In this document: positions 3,454-9,267 of the stretch, piece by piece | Numbering within the stretch: the first letter of the stretch is position 1 | Layout: every line of letters begins with the position of its first letter | DNA from: Mesorhizobium sp. GbtcB19 | GTDB lineage: Bacteria > Pseudomonadota > Alphaproteobacteria > Rhizobiales > Rhizobiaceae | Assembly: GCF_019091085.1 (NCBI RefSeq) | Contig: NZ_JAGXJY010000007.1 | Location: 124,001 to 188,000, forward strand | DNA: 64,000 bases | Direction: 5' to 3' | Translations under genes and position numbers: made by a program | Notes under the pieces: generated by a model | What the model was told of the DNA's origin: nothing | Database searches by the model: none | The model's input: only the letters and a program-made list of their open reading frames with translations

Positions 3454-5055
<1,602 letters not shown>

Positions 5056-5117
5056 TCTTATCTCACCGTATAAAGAGCGATATAACTGTATCATGTATTT
5101 GGGAGATCGAAAATAGT

Positions 5118-5171
5118 CGTCGCGACGGGCGCTTGAGTTTGCGAATTTTTTATCTGTTTAAAAACAATCGC
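5118..5171. promoter_or_regulatory. Candidate RtcR upstream activating region (two palindromes)
   Basis: Two dyads lie 45-100 bases upstream of the sigma54 element. A perfect 10-base palindrome CGTCGCGACG is at 5118-5127. An AT-rich imperfect inverted repeat starts GCGAATTTTTT at 5141 and ends AAAACAATCGC at 5171, with 9 of 11 positions complementary. This is where a sigma54 activator would bind. Binding by RtcR is inferred from position only. The rtcR promoter must lie in the same 159-base gap. Confidence 0.4.
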
Positions 5172-5214
5172 TTATTGGAGGCAATCGATGCCTGCGGCGC
5201 CAGCTCGGCGAAAC

Positions 5215-5230
5215 TGGCACGCGGCTTGTA
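5215..5230 (+). promoter_or_regulatory. Sigma54 (RpoN) -24/-12 promoter of rsr-Y RNA-rtcB operon
   Basis: TGGCACGCGGCTTGTA matches the sigma54 consensus TGGCACG-N4-TTGC(A/T) except that the -12 GC is GT. The -24 GG and -12 spacing are exact. It lies 34 bases before the rsr ATG, next to a gene for a sigma54 activator, which fits RtcR control. The transcription start is expected near 5242. Confidence 0.8.
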
Positions 5231-5263
5231 ATGATCCTGGCGTTGACAAGAAGGATCACGACA

Positions 5264-6823
5264 ATGGCAAACAAATCCGTGTTTGCGACGATTGCAGGAA
5301 AGCTGCTCCCGCCGGCTGACGCCAGGAACCATGAGGGCGCCCAGGCTTACCGCCTGTCGCCCGAGCAGGCCCTGGCTCAGCTGGCGGCGACGGGAACGTT
5401 CAACGCCACCTTCTACGCCGAGCCGCGCGAGCAGCTCGACGAGGTGCTGAAGCTTGCCTGGCAGGTCGAGCCGGCCTTTCTGGCCAAGACCGCGGTCCAT
5501 GCTTTCGAGCAGGGCTACATGAAGGACATGCCGGCGCTTTTGCTGGCCGCGCTGTCCCTGATGCAAGGTGACGGGTTCAACCGCGCCTTCGCCCGGATCG
5601 TGCGCAACGGCAAGATGCTGCGCAACTTCGTGCAGGTGATGCGCTCCGGCGCCACCGGGCGCAAGTCGCTGGGCTCGCGGCCGAAGCGTCTCGTCCAGGC
5701 GTGGCTCGAGCATGCGTCGGACTTCGAGATCATGCGCGCCGCGGTCGGCAACGACCCGTCGCTGGCCGATGTCGTGAAGATGGTTCATCCGAAGCCGGCT
5801 TCGGCCTCGCGTGAAGCGCTCTACGGTTACCTCATCGGCAAGCCGCATGATGTCGCCGCGCTGCCGGACGTGGTGAAGGCTTTCGAGGCCTTCAAGCGCG
5901 ATCCGTCGCTGCCGGTGCCGGAAGTGCCGTTCCAGATGCTGACCTCGATGCCGCTGTCGCGCGAGCATTGGGTGCAGATCGCGGAGACGGCCGGCTGGCA
6001 GATGCTGCGGCAGAACCTCAGCAGCTTCGCGCGCAACGGCGTGTTCGAGGTGGAGGGTTTTGCCGAGAAGCTGGCGGCGCGCCTCAGCGATCCGGATGAG
6101 GTCCGGCGCGCCAGGGTGTTCCCGTACCAGCTGATGGTGGCCTTCACCATGGCTGAGGCCGGGGTGCCCGGCGTGGTCAAGGATGCGCTGCAGGACGCGA
6201 TGGAAGTCGCGCTCGGCAACGTGCCGCAGGTCGAAGGCAATGTGGTCGTCTGCCCGGACGTTTCGGGTTCGATGGCCTCGCCGGCGACCGGCTACCGCAA
6301 GGGCGCGACGTCGGCCGTGCGCTGCATCGACGTGGCCGCCCTGGTGGCCGCCGCGCTGCTGCGCCGCAACCCGACGGCGAGGGTGTTGCCGTTCGAGAAC
6401 GATGTGGTGGATATCCACCTCAACGCTCGCGACACGGTGATGACCAACGCGGCGAAGCTCGCGGCCATCGGCGGCGGCGGAACCAACTGCTCGGCGCCGC
6501 TGGCGCGGCTGGTGCGTGAGAAGGCGAAGGTCGACCTGGTGGTGTTCGTTTCGGACAACCAGTCCTGGGTGGATGCGACGCAGCACGCGCATCAGGGCAC
6601 GGCGACGATGCAGGAATGGCAGAAGCTGAAGGTGCATAACCCGAAGGCCAAGCTGGTCTGCATCGACATCCAGCCCTACGCCACGACGCAGGCGAAAGGC
6701 TGCGCCGACATCCTGAATGTCGGCGGCTTCTCCGACCGGGTCTTCGACGTGGTCGGCACGATGCTCGCCTCCGGCAGCGACCCGGACCATTGGGTGCGCA
6801 CGATCGAGGCGGTGGAGCTCTGA
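5264..6823 (+). CDS. rsr: Rsr, bacterial Ro60-type TROVE/vWA RNA-binding protein
   Basis: This 519-residue protein has an N-terminal TROVE HEAT-repeat ring (about 20-320) and a C-terminal von Willebrand A domain with MIDAS motif DVSGSM (332-337). Ro60 orthologues bind misfolded RNAs in the ring and Y RNA on its outer face; in some bacteria they work with exonucleases in RNA maturation and decay. ATG at 5264 was chosen because AAGGAT precedes it at proper spacing and MANKSVFATIAGKLLPP matches the family start; an ATG at 5231 overlaps the promoter. It is first gene of the sigma54 operon and is followed directly by its presumed RNA partners. Confidence 0.96.
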   Translation: MANKSVFATIAGKLLPPADARNHEGAQAYRLSPEQALAQLAATGTFNATFYAEPREQLDEVLKLAWQVEPAFLAKTAVHAFEQGYMKDMPALLLAALSLMQGDGFNRAFARIVRNGKMLRNFVQVMRSGATGRKSLGSRPKRLVQAWLEHASDFEIMRAAVGNDPSLADVVKMVHPKPASASREALYGYLIGKPHDVAALPDVVKAFEAFKRDPSLPVPEVPFQMLTSMPLSREHWVQIAETAGWQMLRQNLSSFARNGVFEVEGFAEKLAARLSDPDEVRRARVFPYQLMVAFTMAEAGVPGVVKDALQDAMEVALGNVPQVEGNVVVCPDVSGSMASPATGYRKGATSAVRCIDVAALVAAALLRRNPTARVLPFENDVVDIHLNARDTVMTNAAKLAAIGGGGTNCSAPLARLVREKAKVDLVVFVSDNQSWVDATQHAHQGTATMQEWQKLKVHNPKAKLVCIDIQPYATTQAKGCADILNVGGFSDRVFDVVGTMLASGSDPDHWVRTIEAVEL

Positions 6824-6828
6824 GATCT

Positions 6829-6855
6829 GGTCCCGGCGGCGCGTCCGCCGGGACC
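6829..6855 (+). other. Strong hairpin just after rsr stop
   Basis: GGTCCCGGCGG and CCGCCGGGACC form a perfect 11-bp stem around CGCGT, six bases after the rsr stop. No T-run follows, so it is not a typical intrinsic terminator. It could protect the rsr mRNA 3' end or act as a partial terminator or processing barrier between rsr and the Y RNA array. Confidence 0.6.
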
Positions 6856-6872
6856 GACAGAACAGAATTCAG

Positions 6873-7026
6873 GGCATGACGAATGCCGATGGAACTACAG
6901 GCTGTTACCCTCCGTGTCGCGGGTTCGAATCCCGTCGGGTCCGCCATTATGGACCCGTAGCTCAGTGGATAGAGCAGGACCCTGCCGCAAGGCAGGGAGA
7001 TGTTTCATCACCCTTGTCGTCATGCC
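6873..7026 (+). ncRNA. Y RNA-like unit 1 (YrlA-type, tRNA-Arg-like body)
   Basis: The ends GGCATGACGA (6873-6882) and TCGTCATGCC (7017-7026) pair perfectly. They hold the bacterial Y RNA motifs GACGAATG and CCTTGTC. The body is a tRNA in permuted order: T-arm 6919-6935 with loop TTCGAAT, acceptor 3' strand CGGGTCC (6936-6942), joining loop GCCATTAT, acceptor 5' strand GGACCCG (6951-6957), then D-arm 6958-6976 with GCTC/GAGC. The joining loop keeps discriminator G plus CCA. Only 3 bp of anticodon stem remain (GGA/TCC). A GCAA-capped 7-bp hairpin is inserted at 6980-6997. It has no anticodon loop, so it is not an ordinary tRNA. Confidence 0.88.
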
Positions 7027-7078
7027 CGACGACTTTTGCGGCCGCAGCCGCTGGCAAACAAGGAGAACAGAAATCGAA

Positions 7079-7214
7079 GGCGTGACGAATGCCTGTGGAA
7101 CTACATCCTAACTTTCAGGTCGCGGGTTCGATTCCCGCCGGAGCTGCCCATAGGTTCCGTAGTTCAGTTGGTAGAACGGAAAGACAGTTTCACGACAGAC
7201 TTGTCGTCACGACC
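7079..7214 (+). ncRNA. Y RNA-like unit 2 (YrlA-type, opened at anticodon loop)
   Basis: The terminal stem is GGCGTGACGA with TCGTCACGACC, with one bulge. Motifs are GACGAATG and ACTTGTC, one base off CNUUGNC. The body has canonical tRNA spacing in permuted order: anticodon 3' strand CTTTC (7112-7116), variable loop AGGTC, T-arm 7122-7138 (loop TTCGATT), acceptor CGGAGCT (7139-7145), loop GCCCATA containing CCA, acceptor GGTTCCG (7153-7159), D-arm GTTC/GAAC, one base, then anticodon 5' strand GAAAG (7179-7183). The anticodon stem is therefore closed by GAAAG/CTTTC and its loop is where the Ro-binding stem is attached, the classic YrlA plan. Confidence 0.88.
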
Positions 7215-7223
7215 TATAAGATT

Positions 7224-7355
7224 GCCGCGGCGAATGCCGGATAGAACTACAGCTTCAAAGAATGGGATGCTCCGTGAGGTTCGACTCCTCACCTTGGCGG
7301 CGCTCTCTGGCACGAGCGGGACTCCCGGTGTTTCATCATCCCTTGTCGCCGTGGC
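7224..7355 (+). ncRNA. Y RNA-like unit 3 (divergent tRNA-like body)
   Basis: GCCGCGGCGA (7224-7233) pairs with TCGCCGTGGC (7346-7355) through 10 bp with one G-U. Motifs GGCGAATG and CCTTGTC are exact. A T-arm is clear (TGAGG, loop TTCGACT, CCTCA at 7275-7291). The next helix is only CGCTC/GAGCG (7301-7318) and is offset from the T-arm. No convincing D-arm is seen. It keeps the GAACTACA element after the 5' motif. It may be a degenerating copy or one with a different fold. Confidence 0.75.
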
Positions 7356-7367
7356 ACGACGAACCAA

Positions 7368-7414
7368 AGCATGATCCCAAAAAGTGGAATCCGGTTTTTG
7401 GAAAAGATCATGCT
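7368..7414. repeat. Palindromic intergenic element between Y units 3 and 4
   Basis: AGCATGATC and GATCATGCT are the ends of an inverted repeat; inside them CCAAAAA pairs with TTTTTGG. It resembles the element at 16168-16218 and lies exactly in the spacer between two Y RNA units, so it probably inserted there without breaking either RNA. If transcribed it forms a long hairpin. Confidence 0.65.
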
Positions 7415-7422
7415 CAAGAGAA

Positions 7423-7550
7423 TGGCGAATGCAGGCAGGACTACAGGTAGCGCGCCCGTCGAAAGACGGGAGGTCGGGTGTTCAAATCACCCCCTCGCTC
7501 CAGGAGCGGGGTGGCGCAGTCAAGCGTCGTCTTGCCGATCCTTGTCGCCA
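7423..7550 (+). ncRNA. Y RNA-like unit 4 (opened at D-loop, keeps anticodon arm, tRNA-Pro-like)
   Basis: TGGCGA pairs with TCGCCA; motifs GGCGAATG and CCTTGTC are exact. Reading on, the body gives GGTA plus D-stem 3' strand GCGC (7450-7453), one base, an anticodon-like arm CCCGTC-GAAA-GACGGG (7455-7470), variable loop AGGTC, T-arm GGGTG-TTCAAAT-CACCC (7476-7492), acceptor CCTCGCT (7493-7499), tip CCAGG, acceptor AGCGGGG (7505-7511), TG and D-stem 5' strand GCGC (7514-7517) plus AGTC. All spacings match a tRNA opened within the D-loop. The anticodon loop is replaced by GAAA, so it cannot decode. D-arm wording resembles tRNA-Pro. Confidence 0.85.
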
Positions 7551-7562
7551 GCCGAAAGAACA

Positions 7563-7658
7563 GGGCGAATGCCTGCGGGAATACATCTGGTAACCAGGTG
7601 GTTCAAATCCACCCATCGGTCCCAGGATCGATCGGTTTCTCGCATCCACTTGTCGCCC
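7563..7658 (+). ncRNA. Y RNA-like unit 5 (short form)
   Basis: At 96 bases this is the shortest unit. GGGCGA pairs with TCGCCC; motifs are GGCGAATG and ACTTGTC. A T-arm (GGTGG, loop TTCAAAT, CCACC at 7597-7613) joins a 7-bp acceptor-like helix ATCGGTC/GATCGAT (7615-7632) with tip CCAG, again containing CCA. D-arm and anticodon arm are absent. It seems to be a minimal mimic of the T-arm/acceptor minihelix. Confidence 0.78.
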
Positions 7659-7692
7659 GCCCATGGAATGCAGTTGAGACTTGAATGACGAA

Positions 7693-7825
7693 TGGCGAAT
7701 GCAGGCAGGACTACCGGGTAGAGCACCCGTGACGGATGTTGCGGGAGGTCGGGTGTTCGATTCATCCCTTCCATCTTTGCGATGGAAAGTAGCTCAGTAA
7801 ATTGTCTTGCCGCCCCTTGTCGCCA
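7693..7825 (+). ncRNA. Y RNA-like unit 6 (opened at D-loop, keeps anticodon arm)
   Basis: TGGCGA pairs with TCGCCA; motifs GGCGAATG and CCTTGTC are exact. The first 24 bases (from 7691) are identical to unit 4 (from 7421). The body reads GGTA plus D-stem GAGC (7721-7724), one base, anticodon stem CCCGT/GCGGG (7726-7745) with a 10-base loop, variable loop AGGTC, T-arm GGGTG-TTCGATT-CATCC, acceptor TTCCATC/GATGGAA with tip TTTGC, then D-stem GCTC (7792-7795). It is thus opened in the D-loop like unit 4 but carries a different tRNA-like body. It ends 32 bases before rtcB. Confidence 0.85.
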
Positions 7826-7857
7826 GACCGCGACATAATCAGTTGAAAGTGAAAGAC

Positions 7858-9267
7858 ATGACCGAGATCGTAAGCGGACAGGATTTGATCGACGCTGGAA
7901 TGCAGCAGGGCAAGTGGTTTGCCCGCGCGCTCGTGGCGGCCAACGACATTTTGGAGAAGGGCGGGTCACATGCGGATGCGATCGAGGCCGCGCGGGCCTT
8001 CGCGCCGCCGCCGGCGATGCCGCTCCACGCGGGCGGCGCGCTGCCGCTGCATCTCAACATCCTGGCCGAAAACCAGCATGAGGCCGCCAATGTCGAGGCG
8101 GTTACGAAGAGCATGACCGAACTGATGCGGACGCCCGTCGTCCGAGCCGGCGCCATCATGCCCGATGCCTGCCCGGCGGGGTCGCCCGGCACCATTCCGG
8201 TCGGCGGCGTGGCCGTGTCCGAGGGCATCCATCCCGGCATGCATTCGGCCGACATCTGCTGCTCGATGGCGATCTCGGTGTTTCCCGGCGTGGCGCCTGC
8301 CGCGCTGCTCGACGCCGTGCACGCCGTGACCCATTTCGGGCCTGGCGGACGCCAGCGCGGCCAGCAGTTCCGGCCCGCGGACGCGCTTTTCCAGCGCTTC
8401 GAGGCGAACGCCTTGCTGCGCGACCTGAAGAGCGCGTCGATCGAGCATTTCGGCACGCAGGGCGACGGCAACCATTTCGCCTATGTCGGCACGTTGAAGT
8501 CGAGCGGCGAGACCGCGCTGGTCACGCATCACGGCTCGCGTTCGCCGGGCGCCCGGCTCTACGCCAAGGGGATGAGGATCGCCGAGGGGTTCCGCAAAAC
8601 CCTGTCGCCGCAGACCTTGCCGCAGAACGCCTGGATCCCGGCCGACACGCGGGAAGGCGATGAGTATTGGGAGGCCCTGCAGGTGATCCGCGAATGGACC
8701 AAGGGTAACCATATGCTCATCCACGATCTGGCGGCCGAAAAGCTGTCGGCGAAGGTCTCGGACCGGTTCTGGAACGAGCACAACTTCGTCTTCCGCCGCT
8801 CGGACGGGCTGTTCTATCACGGCAAGGGCGCCACGCCGGCCTTCGACGACTGGGCCGACGACGCGACCGATCTGACGCTGATCCCGCTCAACATGGCGGA
8901 GCCGGTGCTGATCGTGCGCGGCAAGAATGCCGAAAACGGCCTCGGCTTCTCGCCGCACGGCGCCGGGCGCAATTTCTCGCGCACCCAGCACCGGCGCATG
9001 CAGGCCGGGCGCGGCGATGCCGAGATCTTCGCCGAGGAGACCCGCGGTATCGACGCCCGGTTCTTCAGTGGGGTGACCGACATTTCGGAGCTGCCGAGCG
9101 CCTATAAGAACGCGGCTTCGATGCGCCGCCAGATCGAGCATTTCGGCCTGGCCGAAATCGTCGACGAGGTGCTGCCTTACGGCTGCATCATGGCCGGCGA
9201 CTGGGAAGCCAACGCGCCGTGGCGCAAGAAGAAGGAGCGGCGCGAGGCCGAGGCGCGCCAGCAATAG
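7858..9267 (+). CDS. rtcB: RtcB-family RNA ligase, long form
   Basis: This 469-residue protein belongs to the RtcB family, which joins 2',3'-cyclic phosphate or 3'-phosphate RNA ends to 5'-hydroxyl ends using GTP and manganese. Visible family elements are ADICCSM (131-137, for DIGCGM), GDGNHF (202-207), HHGSR (224-228), EHNF (307-310) and PHGAGR with the presumed guanylylated His at 367. An extra helical N-terminus of about 90 residues precedes MPD (101-103), so it is longer than the roughly 400-residue enterobacterial form. ATG 7858 follows GTGAAAG; the upstream frame runs through Y unit 6. No rtcA follows. It is last gene of the sigma54 operon. Confidence 0.93.
   Translation: MTEIVSGQDLIDAGMQQGKWFARALVAANDILEKGGSHADAIEAARAFAPPPAMPLHAGGALPLHLNILAENQHEAANVEAVTKSMTELMRTPVVRAGAIMPDACPAGSPGTIPVGGVAVSEGIHPGMHSADICCSMAISVFPGVAPAALLDAVHAVTHFGPGGRQRGQQFRPADALFQRFEANALLRDLKSASIEHFGTQGDGNHFAYVGTLKSSGETALVTHHGSRSPGARLYAKGMRIAEGFRKTLSPQTLPQNAWIPADTREGDEYWEALQVIREWTKGNHMLIHDLAAEKLSAKVSDRFWNEHNFVFRRSDGLFYHGKGATPAFDDWADDATDLTLIPLNMAEPVLIVRGKNAENGLGFSPHGAGRNFSRTQHRRMQAGRGDAEIFAEETRGIDARFFSGVTDISELPSAYKNAASMRRQIEHFGLAEIVDEVLPYGCIMAGDWEANAPWRKKKERREAEARQQ

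Follow-up and report, generated by a model that had tools for sequence, protein, structure and literature searches.

The 64,000-nucleotide (nt) stretch of Mesorhizobium sp. GbtcB19 analysed here (contig NZ_JAGXJY010000007.1, positions 124,001 to 188,000; referred to as the window, from whose first letter all positions are counted) contains about 1 kb between rsr, the gene for a Ro60 ortholog, and a gene for an RNA ligase of the RtcB family, and raises the question of what this interval encodes. A reading made from the sequence alone had proposed six tandem Y RNA-like genes in an rtcR-rsr-rtcB operon. Motif, structure, Rfam matches, covariation and conservation beside rsr support this assignment, and we put the probability that these are six bacterial Y RNAs of a two-design anatomy that bind Rsr at roughly 70%. 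We call the two designs V-open, seen in units 1 and 2, and D-open, seen in units 4 and 6; unit 3 resembles a V-open unit without an acceptor, and unit 5 is a reduced form.

All six units are present in the described order within positions 6872-7827. The 5' motif GNCGAATGC starts at 6878, 7084, 7229, 7424, 7564 and 7694, always on the plus strand and within 0.83 kb. Over both strands of the whole window it occurs 13 times compared to 8.07 expected, a number reached in 9 of 100 shuffles; it is the cluster of six that is striking, not this total. On the 3' side every unit carries CTTGTCG, connected to GNCGAATGC through two stems, the basal one and a second. The 3' motif CNUUGNC takes the form CCTTGTC in units 1, 3, 4 and 6 and ACTTGTC, a one-base variant, in units 2 and 5, in agreement with the sequence-only reading. 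With this variant included, the basal stem of bacterial Y RNAs (5' GNCGAANG / 3' CNUUGNC) is found in 6/6 units, adjacent to the gene for the Ro60 ortholog. The outer pairing of units 1 and 3, previously given as up to 10 bp, turned out slightly better, with 11 pairs each, all perfect in unit 1 and including one G-U in unit 3. Compared to 100 single-base shuffles, the minimum free energy (MFE) folds of units 1 to 6 have z-scores of -4.2, -2.1, -1.3, -3.1, -3.9 and -2.2. As for the description of the interval as protein-free, open reading frames of 105-175 amino acids (aa) do cross it, five of which gave no Pfam match.

The covariance search by which the six genes were to be checked gave different outcomes with two models. 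Only unit 2 (70.1 bits) passes the cut-off of the Rfam YrlA model (RF02553; 69 bits); units 1, 5, 4 and 6 match below it (E = 8e-11, 4.5e-6, 1.3e-5 and 0.0055, respectively), and unit 3 is missing from the list even at E ≤ 10. The second model, R1, was built from an alignment (A1) of 32 D-open units from the window and 19 related loci, and matches all six units, with 134 bits for unit 4 and 122.1 for unit 6, which belong to the training set, and 47.8, 36, 34.4 and 24.3 bits for units 5, 2, 1 and 3, which lie outside it. R1 had no match in the far TROVE relatives L022 and L023 or in L116-L120, one partial match in L102 and one opposite-strand match in L020. In the related loci L001-L012 the Rfam model finds 8 matches at cut-off, all of them V-open, and R1 finds 75 at E ≤ 0.01, of which 21 are units that built R1 and for which the threshold differs in stringency from that of Rfam. 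Most RNAs of this kind escape the public model at its cut-off. Over 199 genomes of the order, 151 match R1 at E ≤ 0.001, among the matches listed mostly with less than 40 bits, and nothing is concluded from this number.

The units have effector domains built from differently permuted tRNA parts, a feature on which the sequence-only reading was silent. In the V-open design, the variable loop is where the Y stem joins the tRNA. The T-arm comes first, followed by the acceptor 3' strand, a short linker, the acceptor 5' strand and the D-arm, as in the Rfam YrlA consensus. This order of T-arm, acceptor and D-arm is partly present in units 3 and 5 and not in units 4 and 6. Compared to the 44 distinct tRNAs of the genome, the four best matches of unit 1 are the four tRNA-Arg, and tRNA-Arg is also the best match of unit 2. 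Across relatives the isotype results are mixed (among 21 chosen unit-1 relatives, Arg is best in 14, Thr in 5 and Met in 2; among 10 unit-2 relatives, Thr leads in 6 and Arg in 4), which rules out exact isotype mimicry as a firm claim. NCCA directly follows the acceptor strand, though in a loop, in 19 of 25 V-open units under a strict parser; a looser one gave 38/75 for units labelled 'V' and 0/27 for 'D?', and mislabelled some D-open units as V (e.g. unit 4 of the window). Unit 1 and some of its relatives contain an additional hairpin 3' of the D-arm. In 13 aligned sequences, this hairpin shows changes on both sides at 5 of 7 pairs with at most four sequences broken at a pair, and its cap is, by eye, GNRA in 12 of 13.

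The D-open design follows another order: D 3' half, anticodon-like stem, variable loop (AGGTC), T-arm, closed acceptor hairpin and D 5' half. The chain enters inside the D-loop, so that the D-stem bridges the Y-stem junction, and the cloverleaf that it encloses has a short cap in place of the anticodon loop. Of 48 parsed D-open units, 47 have D-stem halves that are fully paired across this junction, compared to a mean of 24 and a maximum of 35 in shuffles; this tests the two middle pairs only, since the outer G and C were preset by the parser in each half. The halves read GAGC/GCTC in 27, GCGC/GCGC in 16 and GAAC/GTTC in 3 units (46/48), one more being paired via G-U and the remaining one, from Inquilinus, not fully paired; 1 of 49 units was not parsed. 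Pairing, on whose conservation in related genomes the sequence-only reading depended, is kept there together with strong covariation: in A1, paired cells make up 95.1% of 1114, and changes on both sides are seen at 20 of 35 pairs. When partners were slid, 39-62% were paired, and 0 of 500 shuffles was as high. Within the D-stem of A1, one of four pairs varies (A-U in 16, C-G in 15, one unpaired).

Among 49 distinct D-open units, the anticodon-arm loop was parsed in 39 and measures 4 nt in 32, 5 nt in three, 3 nt in two, and 7 and 8 nt in one unit each; 18 of the 32 4-nt caps are GNRA and three are UUCG. MFE folds of the other ten, inspected by eye, show loops of 4-8 nt in eight and no anticodon arm in L087 and in L009 7353-7456. 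Without an anticodon loop, the units should not decode. For units 4 and 6 no isotype stands out, with Met, Pro, Gly and Ala near the top. A D-open form with a long variable arm (unit 7) is absent from the window and, by eye, present in 13 of L001-L020 and in two loci of the phylum sample (L111 and L112); among 18 chosen copies, the best isotype is Leu in 14 and Ser in 4 (two tied with Leu). Extra sequence lies between the unit-1 acceptor strands of L001, L002, L003 and L007, and an extra palindromic stretch in the anticodon-side loop of unit 7 of L010. The tips at which a tRNA would be read for its amino acid and codon therefore tolerate change.

Unit 3 combines a T-arm with a conserved GCTC-TCTGGCAC-GAGC hairpin, and no acceptor stem is seen. 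Its consensus fold over 24 sequences has double changes in 12 of 31 pairs, the majority of them in the basal, second and T stems; in the D-like hairpin, such changes occur in just two sequences. The MFE fold computed for unit 5 of the window leaves the T-arm unformed. The gap between units 3 and 4 is occupied by a palindromic element (7358-7420), which is possibly a dispersed repeat and is matched below cut-off by the Brucella small RNA models BASRCI27 and BASRCI408; a similar-looking palindromic element lies, by eye, inside a unit of L010 (7492-7683).

To place the array among its relatives, we counted R1 matches (E ≤ 0.01) beside rsr. There are 6 in the window and 5, 7, 6, 6, 7, 7, 5, 7, 7, 6, 6, 6, 7, 5, 7, 5, 6, 5, 5 and 5 in L001-L020, respectively, whereby the opposite-strand match of L020 is excluded and loci with just 1.5 kb of flanks are uncounted. 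These counts are possibly low, as the first units of L001, L003 and L007, which carry insertions, were seen by motif and are unmatched by R1. It had been proposed that six units would be an unusually rich set; the comparison with relatives does not support this, and six is rejected as an exceptional number, since the window and L001-L020 carry 5-7 each. The distant relative L021 has three units beside rsr and two farther off. The array adjoins rsr in the window and in L001-L020, with RtcR upstream in 20/20 and RtcB downstream in 18/20 of these relatives, and by eye like unit types return in the same order across species. The distribution of rsr itself is patchy (counting weak matches, at E ≤ 0.001 it is matched in 21 of 146 genomes in the genus, 32 of 397 in the order sample and 14 of 398 in the phylum sample). 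Two side observations concern individual loci. L018, recorded as Mycobacterium sp. KBS0706, has an rsr locus whose unit order and sequence resemble those of the Inquilinus locus L017, which suggests a mislabelled genome, and in L100 and L101 the Rsr match is in two pieces or contains a stop, yet Y RNA units are nearby.

The analysis above establishes the anatomy, conservation and covariation of the units. The six RNAs are probably made from an RtcR-controlled rsr-Y-rtcB transcript, from which they would then be released. The basal stem would hold Rsr, and the tRNA-shaped end may recruit enzymes that handle tRNAs or structured RNAs in a tRNA-damage response. For YrlA, PMC8394870 describes that the basal stem holds Rsr and that the tRNA-like domain binds PNPase and thereby links Rsr to PNPase. 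Judged from these data, the likeliest function would be that of Rsr-bound tethers made under tRNA damage, followed by that of decoys. PNPase is the leading candidate for the recruited enzyme, and to this step alone we assign slightly less than an even chance.

Several points count against the interpretation as Rsr-bound Y RNAs of two designs. The fold of unit 3 is weak by itself (z -1.3), and the full tRNA set is absent from units 3 and 5. A1 contains close relatives, so that its shuffles overstate independence, and its acceptor helix is the weakest (79.8% paired), partly from misaligned rows. Both Rsr and RtcB score well under the NCBIfam equivalog cut-offs, and the proposed PNPase step is taken over from other species. 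RtcA (PF01137) was not found in the source genome (G000; 6.72 Mb in 687 contigs, listed as 99.98% complete), though RtcR and RtcB are present. As RtcA is reported to be important for induction in Salmonella (PMC7790460), induction may differ here.

The same anatomy could serve a different last step, in which Rsr-held mimics without a cleavable anticodon loop would occupy tRNA-cutting nucleases or tRNA-binding toxins and spare tRNAs during RtcB repair. The short caps in place of the anticodon loop and the presence of several mimics per array, with unit 1 nearest to tRNA-Arg and unit 7 of relatives nearest to tRNA-Leu, are in line with such decoys. This likeness is partial, however, with Arg being best in 14/21 unit-1 and Leu in 14/18 unit-7 relatives and units 4 and 6 resembling no single isotype clearly, and many anticodon nucleases require the loop they cut. 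The operon is under RtcR, which responds to cleaved tRNAs, and YrlA has been raised as a competitive inhibitor and stated not to be a substrate of an anticodon nuclease (both PMC7790460). On balance, we consider decoys unlikely. It may further be speculated, with a similarly low likelihood, that the bacterium keeps Ro-bound tRNA mimics of different isotypes as a panel of baits that cannot be cleaved, or of sensors, in the defence against tRNA damage; the mimics would come in two circular permutations and lack anticodon loops, and the CCA in the V-open acceptor loop would allow enzymes recognising tRNA ends to engage once processing has occurred.

Alternatively, the units could be redundant paralogs that arose by tandem duplication of one tether and differ mostly by drift. 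The variation of 5-7 R1 matches among relatives, the near-identical 5' ends of units 4 and 6 (96% over 28 nt) and the L009 unit without an anticodon arm would fit this explanation, whereas the recurrence of similar unit types in the same order in different species, the unusual form of unit 3 kept in 24 sequences and the covarying stems argue against it, which leaves it rather improbable. Decayed tRNA genes or tRNA-fragment repeats are very improbable and were ruled out as the main explanation: while the tRNA parts are clear and ARAGORN detects 0 tRNA genes, and hence no standard cloverleaf with a 7-nt anticodon loop, in the window, the compensatory changes, the conserved Y motifs and the place beside rsr contradict mere decay.

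The surrounding genes have the composition of an rtc RNA-repair operon, with a divergent rtcR, a sigma-54-like promoter (TGGCAC-N5-TTGTA, by eye only) and RtcB (Table 1). Rsr matches PDB 2nvo, the structure of Deinococcus Rsr, but reaches just 85.5 bits compared to an NCBIfam Rsr cut-off of 900, which points to a divergent branch. For rsr, the ATG at 5264 is the more likely start compared to the mechanical TTG at 5231: the latter adjoins the promoter-like site, and a later start is consistent with the stop found within 14 of 21 genus matches to the 530-aa frame (open frames 523-530 aa). Directly after the rsr stop, a strong 11-bp GC hairpin was seen by eye (6829-6855; nrdJ model 25.8 bits, below cut-off), which may protect the rsr mRNA end if the Y RNAs are cut out. 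A 546-aa open frame antisense to rsr (5150-6790, minus strand) is probably a by-product of high GC content.

Table 1 Features of the rtcR-rsr-rtcB locus, in window positions.
Feature	Position	Strand	Evidence or remark
rtcR	3454..5094	-	Sigma-54 activator of RNA-repair operon; Pfam RtcR E 5.6e-81; NCBIfam NF038308 816.7 bits (cut-off 650)
Sigma-54-like promoter TGGCACGCGGCTTGTA	5215..5230	+	Upstream of rsr; by eye against consensus, no statistic
rsr (Ro60 ortholog)	5264..6823	+	Ro60 vWA and TROVE domains; PDB 2nvo Rsr E 5e-23
Unit 1, V-open, tRNA-Arg-like	6872..7027	+	Rfam below cut-off, R1, fold, tRNA comparison
Unit 1 T-arm	6919-6935	+	
Unit 1 acceptor 3' strand	6936-6942	+	
Unit 1 NCCA	6943-6946	+	
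Unit 1 acceptor 5' strand	6951-6957	+	
Unit 1 D-arm	6958-6975	+	
Unit 1 GCAA-capped hairpin	6980-6997	+	
Unit 2, V-open YrlA type	7081..7211	+	Rfam YrlA 70.1 bits, above cut-off; R1
Unit 2 T-arm	7122-7138	+	
Unit 2 acceptor strands	7139-7145 and 7153-7159	+	
Unit 2 D-arm	7160-7177	+	
Unit 3	7223..7356	+	T-arm, then D-arm-like hairpin; R1 24.3 bits, consensus fold of 24 relatives
Unit 4, D-open	7421..7552	+	R1, fold, A1 covariation, D-stem and loop parsing
Unit 4 D 3' half	7446-7453	+	
Unit 4 capped anticodon-like stem	7455-7470	+	GAAA loop
Unit 4 variable loop	7471-7475	+	
Unit 4 T-arm	7476-7492	+	
Unit 4 closed acceptor hairpin	7493-7511	+	
Unit 4 D 5' half	7512-7521	+	
Unit 5, short form	7563..7658	+	GG-containing strand, T-arm, acceptor-like hairpin; Rfam below cut-off, R1
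Unit 6, D-open	7691..7827	+	R1, fold, A1 covariation, D-stem and loop parsing
Unit 6 D 3' half	7716-7724	+	
Unit 6 capped anticodon-like stem	7726-7745	+	GGAT loop
Unit 6 variable loop	7746-7750	+	
Unit 6 T-arm	7751-7767	+	
Unit 6 acceptor hairpin	7768-7789	+	
Unit 6 D 5' half	7790-7799	+	
rtcB-family RNA ligase gene	7858..9267	+	Pfam RtcB E 7.6e-32; under NCBIfam cut-offs

If the interpretation as Rsr-bound Y RNAs is correct, a tRNA can be joined to the Ro stem in a second way, that of the D-open units, in which a 7-nt anticodon loop is almost always missing, and tRNA mimicry in Ro ribonucleoproteins would have been built more than once or re-permuted. It would also tie the role of bacterial Ro to tRNA damage, and the single-unit designs offer direct tests of the binding partner of each domain. 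Y RNAs were reportedly found in more than 250 species by Chen and colleagues in 2014, with at least one tRNA-like RNA in each. The D-open permutation with a capped anticodon arm is not displayed by the public RNA model; a literature search that did not cover the central Y RNA papers found no paper on permuted or tRNA-like Y RNA or on Ro60 in Mesorhizobium, and among the titles listed for YrlA, Rsr and bacterial Y RNA none on D-open forms.

With YrlA (RF02553), the units share the basal Ro-type stem, the place adjacent to rsr and, in units 1 and 2, the T-arm, acceptor and D-arm. They differ from it in three respects: the cut-off is passed by unit 2 alone, the permutation of units 4 and 6 is a different one that includes a variable loop and a capped anticodon arm, and unit 3 is without a visible acceptor stem. 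Circularly permuted tRNA genes (the subject of PMC3978253) likewise have the 3' part of the tRNA ahead of the 5' part, whereas the units described here have a Y stem and no anticodon loop and give no sign that a working tRNA is made. Compared to the rsr-yrlBA-rtcBA operon of Salmonella (PMC7790460), the locus contains six Y RNAs instead of two (yrlB and yrlA) and no rtcA was found in the genome, while the divergent rtcR, rsr, the Y RNAs and rtcB are common to both.
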